Source: Eubacteriaceae bacterium (lineage in GTDB: Bacteria; Bacillota; Clostridia; Eubacteriales; Eubacteriaceae). Taken from it: DNA of 64,000 nucleotides. This document shows, one piece after another, positions 5,127 through 8,611 of the stretch. Every line of letters begins with the position of its first letter. The first letter of the stretch is position 1. The position numbers and the translations under genes are program-made. The notes below the pieces were generated by a model, which searched no databases, was not told the origin of the DNA, and saw only the letters and a list, made by a program, of their open reading frames with translations. The DNA lies in NCBI GenBank assembly GCA_017405085.1, contig JAFRBB010000059.1:1-64000 (forward strand). Reading direction: 5' to 3'.

Positions 5127-6587
5127 ATGAACGAACAGCAAACCCGCGGCGCCAGACATTTTGACCCGGCCATCGACAACGACGATGAACAGTTAAAAGA
5201 TGTCCTCGGCACCGAGACCAACATGTACGATTTCAAGGATGACGATGACGCCGCCTTTCGGGTGGCCGAGGGTCTGACCCCGGACATCGTTGCCGAAATC
5301 TCCGACGAAAAACACGATCCCGATTGGATGCGCGAATTTCGTCAGAAATGCCTGAAACTCTATTATCAAATGAACGTGCCCGAGTGGGGACCGCCCATCG
5401 ACGGGCTCAACATGGACGAGATCGTCACCTATGTCCGCCCCGACACCCAAATGCAAGCCGATTGGGAGGACGTGCCCGCCGACATCAAAAACGCCTTTGA
5501 GCGCCTCGGCATTCCCCAGGCGGAGCGCGAATCTTTGGCCGGGGTCGGCGCCCAATACGACTCCGAGCTGGTCTATCACAACCTGCAGGACGAAGTGGCG
5601 GCCCAGGGCGTCGTCTACACCGATTTTGAAAGCGCCTTAACCGGCGAGTTCGCCGACATGGTGCGCGAATACTTCATGAAACTCGTCCCGCCGACAGATC
5701 ACAAATTCGCGGCCCTTCACGGGGCTGTCTGGTCCGGGGGCTCCTTTGTGTATGTGCCCAAGGGCGTCAAGGTCGAGATTCCCCTCCAGTCCTATTTTCG
5801 CTTAAACGCCAAAGGCGCCGGCCAGTTTGAGCACACCCTGATCATCGTCGACGAAGGGGCCGATCTGCACTTCATCGAAGGGTGCTCGGCGCCCAAGTGG
5901 AACACCGCCAACCTCCATGCCGGCTGCGTGGAGCTCTACGTCAAAAAGAACGCCAGACTGCGCTATTCCACCATCGAAAACTGGTCCAAAAACATGTACA
6001 ACCTCAACACCAAACGGGCCATCGTCGAGGAAGGGGGACGCATGGAATGGGTGTCCGGCTCCTTCGGTTCCCACGTGTCCTATCTCTACCCCACCACCAT
6101 CCTCAAAGGGGACGGCGCCGATGTGGAATACACCGGCATCACCTTCTCTGGCAAGGGGCAAAACCTCGACACCGGGGCCCGGATGGTGCATCTGGGCAAA
6201 AACACCTCCTCCATCTTAAACACCAAATCCATCGCCAAGGACGGCGGCGTGGGCACTTTTCGCTCCGCCATCGAAATCCGGCCGACGGCGAAGGGCGCCA
6301 AAAGCGCCGTGGACTGCCAGTCCCTGATGCTCGACAGCCATTCCCGCAGCGACACCATTCCGGCGGTGGACGTGCGCACCGGCGACGCCGACGTGGGACA
6401 CGAGGCCAAAATCGGACGCATCAGCGATGAGACCGTCTTCTACCTCATGAGCCGGGGCATCCCCGAAGAGGAAGCCCGGGCGATGATCGTCTCCGGCTTT
6501 GCCAGCCCCGTCAGCAAAGAGCTGCCTTTGGAATACGCCGCCGAAATGAACAACCTCATCCAACTGGAAATGGAAGGTAATATGTAA
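5127..6587 (+). CDS. sufB: Fe-S cluster scaffold protein SufB
   Basis: A 486-residue SufB, the core scaffold on which Fe-S clusters are built with SufC and SufD. Typical blocks are present: VYVPKGVKVEIPLQSYFR, HFIEGCSAP, and the C-terminal GRISDETVFYLMSRG. A long N-terminal region with DWMREFRQKCLK is characteristic of SufB rather than SufD. It lies 8 bp after sufC with only a weak ribosome site, suggesting coupling. In Firmicutes the usual order is sufC-D-S-U-B; here sufB is second. A 776-bp repeat block separates it from sufD. Confidence 0.95.
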   Translation: MNEQQTRGARHFDPAIDNDDEQLKDVLGTETNMYDFKDDDDAAFRVAEGLTPDIVAEISDEKHDPDWMREFRQKCLKLYYQMNVPEWGPPIDGLNMDEIVTYVRPDTQMQADWEDVPADIKNAFERLGIPQAERESLAGVGAQYDSELVYHNLQDEVAAQGVVYTDFESALTGEFADMVREYFMKLVPPTDHKFAALHGAVWSGGSFVYVPKGVKVEIPLQSYFRLNAKGAGQFEHTLIIVDEGADLHFIEGCSAPKWNTANLHAGCVELYVKKNARLRYSTIENWSKNMYNLNTKRAIVEEGGRMEWVSGSFGSHVSYLYPTTILKGDGADVEYTGITFSGKGQNLDTGARMVHLGKNTSSILNTKSIAKDGGVGTFRSAIEIRPTAKGAKSAVDCQSLMLDSHSRSDTIPAVDVRTGDADVGHEAKIGRISDETVFYLMSRGIPEEEARAMIVSGFASPVSKELPLEYAAEMNNLIQLEMEGNM

Positions 6588-7363
6588 GCCGCGAGCAGGT
6601 GCGAGCGGCGCTCGAGTGAGGGCGAAAGCCCGAACGGATGTTTTCTCGCGCAGCGAGAAAACTGCCCAAAAAAGACAAGCGAAACCCTACCGAGAAGCCA
6701 AAGGAGACGAGCGGCGCATGAGCGAGGAACAGCCGTTCCGAGCGTAAGTGAGCATCCAAATCTATGATTTGGCCCATGCGAACTTATCGAGCGAAGCGGG
6801 TGGAGATGATTTCTCGCGCAGCGAGAAATCTGCCCAAAAAAGGATCTGTCAAAACCTTTTGAATAGTCAAGTAAGACGAGCGGCGCTCGAGCGAGGGCGA
6901 AAGCCCGAGCGGATGTTTTCTCGCACAGCGAGAAATCTGCCCAAAAAAGGATCTGTCAACCCCTAGCGAGTAGCCAACGAGCGGCGCCCCCGCGAGGAAC
7001 AGCCGTTCTGAGCGTAAGTGAGCATCCAAATCTATGATTTGGCCCATGCGAACTTATCGAGCGAAGCGGGTGGAGATGATTTCTCGCGCAGCGAGAAATC
7101 TGCCCAAAAAAGGATAGCGAAAAGCTTACGCTCTATATTGTGCTCCGTCAGCCATTTGCGGAAGAACCCTTCACACTCCGCTACGCTACGGATAGCTTCC
7201 GTCAGCCAATCACACTCGCTTTCGCTCATGTTCTTGGGACGTCAGTTACGTCATCTCGCCAAAGGCGAGATGCCACCTCCCCTAATCTAGGGGAGGCCAT
7301 GGGCCGCGGCGCCCCGGCACAAAAGCCACCCAACGATTCACCACGTCAAAACAAGGAAAATCA
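6588..7363. repeat. Palindromic repeat mosaic inserted between sufB and sufD
   Basis: No convincing gene. The block contains two imperfect tandem units of about 270-275 bp: 6603-6676 repeats at 6878-6952, and 6722-6845 repeats at 6992-7115 with a single mismatch. Within them the hairpin TTTCTCGC-NNN-GCGAGAAA followed by CTGCCCAAAAAAG occurs four times (starting near 6642, 6810, 6917 and 7080). Other perfect stems are GGGC-GAAA-GCCC (twice), CCAAATC-TAT-GATTTGG (twice), CATCTCGCC-AAA-GGCGAGATG (7252-7272) and CCTCCCCTA-ATC-TAGGGGAGG (7276-7296). This resembles REP/BIME-type intergenic elements and would form a heavily folded stretch of the suf messenger. Confidence 0.85.
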
Positions 7364-8611
7364 ATGAACAATCTTAACTTCAACCATCAACCCACACATC
7401 ACAAGGCCGCGCGGCGCGCGGGCCATGGGGACGGACATGACCTGACGTTGCGGGTCGCCCATTTACCCGCCCTCACTTGGAACCGTCTTGGTGTCAACGA
7501 CGCCGGCGTCTCCGTCGATCTCGGGGAAACCCTTCCCCTGGTCAGCGCCGTGTCGGGTCACGACCGGCCCGGAATTGACCTTAAAACCGCGGACAGCGCC
7601 GGCATCAAAGCCGCCCTGGACGCCTTCGGCACCGGCGAGAGAGAACGGGTCATCGCCGGCAAGACCGCCATCTATGCCGAACAGGCTGTGGCCACGGGCC
7701 TCGGCGCCGAGTTTGAGGCCTTCATGGACGGCCACGCCCGGGGATACATCCTCACCTTTTCCGACACCGCGGAGCAGCCCGTCATCTTCGACACCGCTCC
7801 CGAAGGCACCGCCGCCCTAAACGGGGAGACAGGAGACATCCTGCTCACCGACAGCGTCAACGCCGTCTCCCAAATCATCCGCGTGCCCGAGGGACGCGAG
7901 GCCACCGTCATCGACGTCATTCGCGGAGACGACGGCAAAAAAGGATTTGCCGCCAGACTCGTCCGAGCCCATGTCGGGCGCGGCGCCAAATGTCACCTCA
8001 TCCGGGTGTGTTTGGCCGGCGATGATTTCACCGTCATGGACGACACCGGCGCCGTTCTGGAAGAGGACGCGGTTTTTGATTATACCCGTGTGGTGGTCGG
8101 CACCGGCCGTTGTTATGCCGGTTGTGCCATCGATCAGCGGGGAGACCGGTCGTCCTTTCATTTCGACTGTGCCTATGACCTCGCGGAAAATGATTTGCTC
8201 GAAATGAATGACGTCACCGTTCAGCGGGGACGGGACACCGAAAGCACCATGCGCCTTCACGGCGTGCTTTCAAAGGACTCAGAGAAAACCTTTCGGGGCA
8301 CCATCGACTTTCGCAGCGGCTCCGCCGGCTCCACAGGGGATCAGGAAGAGGACGTTCTGCTTTTGGATGATGCCCTCATCAACAAATCCATGCCCATCAT
8401 CCTCTGCGAGGAGGAAGATGTCGAGGGGCGTCACGCCGCCTCTATCGGCAGACTTTCCGAGGACATATTGTTCTATCTCAAAACCCGGGGCATCGATGAA
8501 GAGACCGCCCGCCGCCTGATGGTGGCCGGCAAGGTGGGCACGGTGGTTCGCCACATTCCGTCCGAAACCGTCCGATCCGCTGTCACCGCCTCGGTGGACG
8601 CGCTGAGCTAA
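7364..8611 (+). CDS. sufD: Fe-S cluster assembly protein SufD
   Basis: A 415-residue member of the SufB/SufD family, the second beta-helix subunit of the SufBCD complex. It is shorter than SufB, lacks the SufB N-terminal block, and ends with the family C-terminus GRLSEDILFYLKTRGIDEE. The central region carries FHFDCAYDLAENDLLEMND and the STMRLHGVL strand. AAGGAAAA precedes the ATG. It lies downstream of the repeat block and 29 bp before sufS. Confidence 0.9.
   Translation: MNNLNFNHQPTHHKAARRAGHGDGHDLTLRVAHLPALTWNRLGVNDAGVSVDLGETLPLVSAVSGHDRPGIDLKTADSAGIKAALDAFGTGERERVIAGKTAIYAEQAVATGLGAEFEAFMDGHARGYILTFSDTAEQPVIFDTAPEGTAALNGETGDILLTDSVNAVSQIIRVPEGREATVIDVIRGDDGKKGFAARLVRAHVGRGAKCHLIRVCLAGDDFTVMDDTGAVLEEDAVFDYTRVVVGTGRCYAGCAIDQRGDRSSFHFDCAYDLAENDLLEMNDVTVQRGRDTESTMRLHGVLSKDSEKTFRGTIDFRSGSAGSTGDQEEDVLLLDDALINKSMPIILCEEEDVEGRHAASIGRLSEDILFYLKTRGIDEETARRLMVAGKVGTVVRHIPSETVRSAVTASVDALS

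Follow-up and report, generated by a model that had tools for sequence, protein, structure and literature searches.

A nested array of small hairpin-forming repeats, probably mobile, separates sufB from sufD in a Eubacteriaceae genome

The small dispersed repeats (SDRs) of cyanobacteria, attributed to Elhai in 2008, are reportedly very small, hairpin-forming elements with compensatory changes in their stems, nested in other repeats and limited to one clade. Their unit size is said to be about 21–27 bp, and no enzyme is known to act on them. REPs are better delimited: one study defines them as palindromes tagged at one end with the tetranucleotide GTAG or CGTC (PMC3733652), and another gives their usual copy number as more than 100 per genome (PMC2817692). 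Stem-loops between genes have also been connected with RNA processing. In a Clostridium, according to PMC4423207, they occur at intergenic processing sites and are enriched for subunits of complexes.

The locus described here lies in the window, a 64,000-nucleotide (64-kb) stretch of a Eubacteriaceae genome (G000, 96% complete). On its + strand, sufC, sufB, a sufD-like gene, sufS and sufU follow one another (NCBIfam assignments). The sufB gene spans 5127..6587 (TIGR01980, 671.5 bits) and the sufD-like gene 7364..8611. The product of the latter matched TIGR01981 at 157.7 bits, under the 222-bit cut-off, so it is labelled SufD because of this match together with its position after sufB, as in relatives. 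Between the sufB stop codon (6585–6587) and the sufD start (7364) there are 776 bp. A reading of the sequence alone (the sequence-only reading) had held that the two genes normally lie close together, and the comparison agreed with it. With the gap defined as the distance between the sufB stop and the earliest start codon in frame with sufD, a value was obtained in 59 of 67 loci (L053, L063, L082, L090, L091 and L095–L097 have no value and were left out), and the 58 values besides the present one lie between -26 and 226 bp, which makes 776 bp the outlier. In the family relatives with a gap value (L093 and L094), sufB and sufD overlap by 4 bp. No sufB or sufD match was found in the congener G001 (75% complete).

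Despite the block, SufB appears to end natively and is intact: its C-terminus reads LEMEGNM*, six of 13 relatives end in LEMEGM* or LEMEGE*, and the rest end within a few residues. Stop codons occur in all three frames across the 776 bp, so translational coupling of sufB and sufD would be lost. The uncoupling of sufD that had been suggested earlier is supported in its translational part only, judged from the 4-bp overlap in relatives against the long, stop-filled gap here. In one further locus, L073 from an unrelated Clostridiales genome, the sufB–sufD gap (547–772) holds a different palindrome, long and strong, that matched 16 times in the genome concerned. More than one lineage may therefore tolerate landings at this junction, but two loci are too few to decide. 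The palindromic gap of L045 was considered as another dispersed repeat and rejected, as it matched only itself.

The block had first been delimited as 6588–7363. It is real, and its limits were refined: the first repeat base, 6585, already belongs to the sufB stop codon, and the repeats run to about 7303 (about 0.7 kb), followed on the + strand by a 60-bp non-repeat sufD leader (7304..7363) with a ribosome-binding site, AAGGA, at 7353–7357, six bases before the ATG. The two 270-bp tandem units seen earlier are dimers, 96% identical over 139 nt and 86% overall (230/267 aligned bases). They resolve into four palindromic units of about 105 bp, here M1 (103–109 bp without inserts), the second and fourth of which are split by an identical 60-bp element, M2. 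All are on the + strand, with boundaries taken from nhmmer matches and unit alignment. Units 1 (6585..6689, nhmmer match 6585–6684, starting TAAGCCGCGAGC) and 3 (6859..6964) are without M2. Unit 2 (6690..6858) holds M2 (TAAGTG...GGTGGA) at 6745..6804, between GAGCG and GATG, and unit 4 (6965..7127) holds the identical copy at the same position in the unit, 7015..7074; both inserts were located by exact pattern match. The empty-site counterpart of the unit 2 insertion in other copies reads GAGCGGATG. The hairpin TTTCTCGC(G/A)CAGCGAGAAA, already noticed in four copies, was found at 6642, 6810, 6917 and 7080, and its pattern had eight matches over both strands of the 64 kb against 0.04 expected by chance. 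Further along the + strand are M3in (7173..7251; nhmmer; 12 matches in the own-genome DNA covered), a module of about 80 bp inside an element named E3, and the 3' part of E3 (7247..7303; nhmmer and fold). The two additional perfect stems of the earlier description were found in the latter, ATCTCGCC-AAA-GGCGAGAT at 7253–7271 and CCTCCCCTA-ATC-TAGGGGAGG at 7276–7296.

Within the window, models of M1, M2, M3in and E3 match this block only. Over the whole genome, where a count of repeat copies had been proposed, the block had at least 74 matches in G000 (40 of 90 candidates scored). There were 32 copies of M2 with up to three mismatches, and none of the reversed pattern. A covariance model of M2 gave 57 matches in G000, 21 in G001 and, across the order's 65 remaining genomes, three weak ones (30–32 bits) confined to two of them. 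When the block was searched over 31 genomes, matches came from G000 and the single congener G001 only. On these searches, the repeats are a dispersed family limited to the genus, as represented by G000 and one congener. Repeat matches were also seen within 250 bp of contig ends in G000 (e.g., C49, C17, C6 and C65). The repeats probably broke the assembly there, and true copy numbers may therefore exceed the counts.

The three weak matches, L175 and L178 (G046) and L176 (G047), come from a different genus of the same family, where they were seen in two genomes. They are hairpins of the form TAAGT-CCAAATCTTTGATTTGG-ACTTA, close to the M2 stem, and follow broken copies of a tRNA-like gene's 5' half; they are possibly a distant relative of M2, possibly a coincidence. 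A search for a source of the block in phage, plasmid and viral-contig collections gave no match, and a phage or plasmid origin was rejected for that reason. We also sorted 60 repeat clusters by the gap that they occupy: 25 were co-directional, four convergent, two divergent, one inside a predicted gene and 28 unclassified. A preference for operon-internal gaps was rejected, since 25 of 31 classifiable intergenic clusters being co-directional, compared with 66 of 105 gaps >100 bp in the sample, is no clear excess.

The 32 M2 copies start with TAAGTG (TAAATG in one) and end with GGA. For 23 of 29 copies, a paralogous site without the interruption was found in non-redundant DNA of the same genome, and the junction showed neither gain nor loss of a base; one of the 23 sites is weak (E 0.05) and another has a one-base gap off the junction. 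The remaining copies comprise three that are part of tandem arrays and three for which no empty site was found. The empty sites fall in M1 at GAGCG^GATG or one-base variants of it (12 of 23), in M1 in the other orientation (two, CTCGCT^CAAGCG), in another repeat (five, GCGCT^ACCGCGC) and in E3 (four, two of them within the E3 stem-loop TAATTTA^GGGGAG). With 12 of the 23 at one target, many of these cases may go back to a single copied composite, or to few events, rather than to independent insertions. No target-site duplication was present at the junctions of these 23 copies, and no inverted repeat at the two ends of M2. By the evidence of its paralogous sites, M2 is a precisely inserted unit.

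Other modules were seen in similar arrangements. One of them, M4, whose ends are inverted (GTAAGCCGTGC / GCACGGCTTAC or similar), splits M2 copies at L029:1535–1859 and L174:18318–18512. The split point is the same in both, which may thus be one composite, and M4 in M2 is not claimed as an independent third level of nesting. M3in is itself split by a module of about 46 bp (GAAGGTGAAT-hairpin-AGAGAGGC-hairpin) at L018:1501–1768 and L019:1501–1775, a further nesting level. One exact M2 pattern lies in a predicted gene (L128:1501–1560, G000:C17:22212–22271) and had no empty-site paralogue.

The hairpins of both modules carry compensatory changes. In M2 (28 copies, 27 of them distinct), 99.1% of stem cells were paired, and four pairs, in 14 cells, had changed on both sides; the covariation score was reached by none of 500 shuffles, and every slid control was far lower. 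A contrary measure, the number of further pair types, was nine against a shuffled mean of 10.8. In the 11 copies of M1, 89.8% of stem cells were paired, with both-sided changes in seven pairs and 14 cells and a score above all 500 shuffles; two pairs of the third stem are mismatched in nine of the 11. Taken over the aligned copies, the hairpins of M1 and M2 are evidently kept by compensation.

M1 was compared with neighbouring genes at 21 of its 5' ends, most of which read TAAGCC. Four of the 21 double as the stop codon that closes a long sense-direction reading frame, namely those of sufB (TAA), argS (L174), argJ (L012, reading TGA) and, in L022, a diguanylate-cyclase gene. In L010 another long frame, the fifth, reads on into the M1 element instead. 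The NCBIfam alignments of ArgS and ArgJ extend to the last profile position, so these proteins have native ends and are not truncated. The M1 hairpin after the stop is GCCGC/GCGGC, or GCCCC/GGGGC in two copies. One could picture M1 as a mobile hairpin that docks at gene 3' ends in the sense direction with its own in-frame TAA, a movable intercistronic insulator, which we regard as a long shot. If it were true, M1 would keep the upstream protein whole, and the hairpin behind the stop would reset subunit ratios in operons.

The likely explanation, in our view, is that small mobile elements, non-coding, hairpin-forming and peculiar to the genus, have built up the block as a nested array that is tolerated in the transcript. 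The earlier suggestions included a mobile array of repeats that the transcript tolerates, and this one is well supported by the dispersed copies, the precise insertions with empty sites, the intact SufB end and the sufD leader with its ribosome-binding site. The order of events that we infer would begin with an M1 of about 105 bp settling exactly at the sufB stop, in the orientation of the gene and supplying or sharing the TAA; the ends and empty sites of M1 are established less strictly than those of M2. M1 would then have grown into a tandem array, which the 60-bp M2 entered without duplicating its target, and duplication of the pair of M1 and M2-split M1 would have produced the 270-bp repeat. 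The composite E3, split by M3in, sits downstream of the M1 array. The elements might move in trans as folded single-stranded DNA or RNA. The operon would still be transcribed through the block, and the hairpins would at most shift the sufB:sufD ratio, with translational coupling gone and the upstream mRNA perhaps protected.

A change in mRNA stability or subunit ratio through the block is possible by analogy with the structures of PMC4423207 and PMC7518266. A stronger form, in which the block is a functional intercistronic array of stem-loops that process or stabilise the RNA and set the SufCB:SufDSU ratio, is unlikely in our judgement. It would account for the covarying stems and for a very stable fold: the + strand RNA of the block reaches -303 kcal/mol (z = -7.9), and none of 20 shuffles was equally stable. 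It also suits the suf genes, which serve one complex, as in the Clostridium enrichment mentioned above, and the other dispersed palindrome in the L073 gap. Yet selection for mobility could also yield covariation, the 58 other measured loci manage with at most 226 bp, and identical modules lie in many unrelated gaps (the 60 clusters), so nothing links them to suf. Like the selective RNA processing and stabilisation stem-loops of PMC4423207 and the ribosome termination structures of PMC7518266, the hairpins here are stable, follow a stop codon and belong to an operon of complex subunits. They differ in being dispersed repeats and in that the folds just after the stop are not clearly better than shuffles: local stability was ordinary for the composition (z -1.2 to 0.5), which does not support the local post-stop hairpin as an unusually stable structure. 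There was no Rfam match at gathering score in the window. A secondary promoter before sufD had been proposed as a check, and none of the sigma-70 type was found there or in the block. No terminator was found on the + strand of the block, so read-through from the sufC side is expected; its - strand has one terminator-like site (1.8 expected). Is the block itself sound? Short reads handle near-identical tandem units poorly, and the many repeats at contig ends fit with a collapse or false join of repeat-rich reads in the interval from sufB to sufD. Such an artefact, named earlier as a refutation, is most improbable, at least in kind, the number of units in the array being less secure: the block is internal to a contig of 73.9 kb and is flanked by suf genes, the end of sufB is native, and arrays of like make-up occur both on contig C58 and on contig C130 of G001, an assembly made separately.

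That the modules belong to the REP/BIME family and owe their mobility to a RAYT transposase is very unlikely, although they share much with the REPs, BIMEs and REPINs of PMC3733652, PMC3116915 and PMC2817692: they are extragenic, palindromic and clustered, often lie close behind genes and show stem covariation. Their own-genome counts, given above, can be set beside the usual REP copy number. The differences are the longer units (60–105 bp), the precise nested insertions and the ends, which begin with TAAG in both M1 and M2 (mostly TAAGCC; TAAGTG...GGTGGA) and have no GTAG or CGTC tag. No RAYT was found in G000, flanked by repeats or otherwise, which at 96% completeness is not final. The sole Y1 transposase (PF01797) belongs to an IS200/IS605 element as its TnpA; this element, which also encodes TnpB, is a single copy with divergent tnpA/tnpB and end hairpins CCCACCCACTTTAGTGGGTGGG (L123:1330–3230, G000:C7). 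Its flanks hold none of the repeat modules, and its end hairpin, CCCACCCAC-TTTA-GTGGGTGGG, has no meaningful match to them. We rejected this resident element as the mover because its ends are unlike the modules, which for the same reason do not look like IS200/IS605 derivatives. A search for a reverse transcriptase as mover found none.

The reading that we prefer, a tolerated array of mobile hairpins, places the modules nearest to other small elements. Like MITEs they are short, non-autonomous and dispersed with precise ends, but M2 has neither terminal inverted repeats nor target-site duplications; M4 does have inverted ends. With SDRs they share self-folding units (M1 and M2) with compensatory changes and nested, precise insertions within one clade, and they differ in size (60 bp for M2 and about 105 bp for M1) and in the host, which its SufD relatives place with the Clostridia and not the cyanobacteria. 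No prior description of M1, M2, M3in or E3 was found in the accessible portion of the open-licence literature, where searches turned up REP, REPIN and papers citing SDRs. As far as sequence can tell, the modules would be new small mobile palindromic repeats of a REP- or SDR-like kind, placed outside REP/BIME for want of the tag and of a RAYT.

In a clostridial genus where searches found neither a RAYT nor a reverse transcriptase, clean 60-bp insertions without target duplication would then have happened on many occasions, and the mechanism that mobilises elements this small would become approachable in a new group. The locus would also offer a natural test, an operon of one protein complex in which two scaffold genes stand 776 bp apart, separated by structured RNA.
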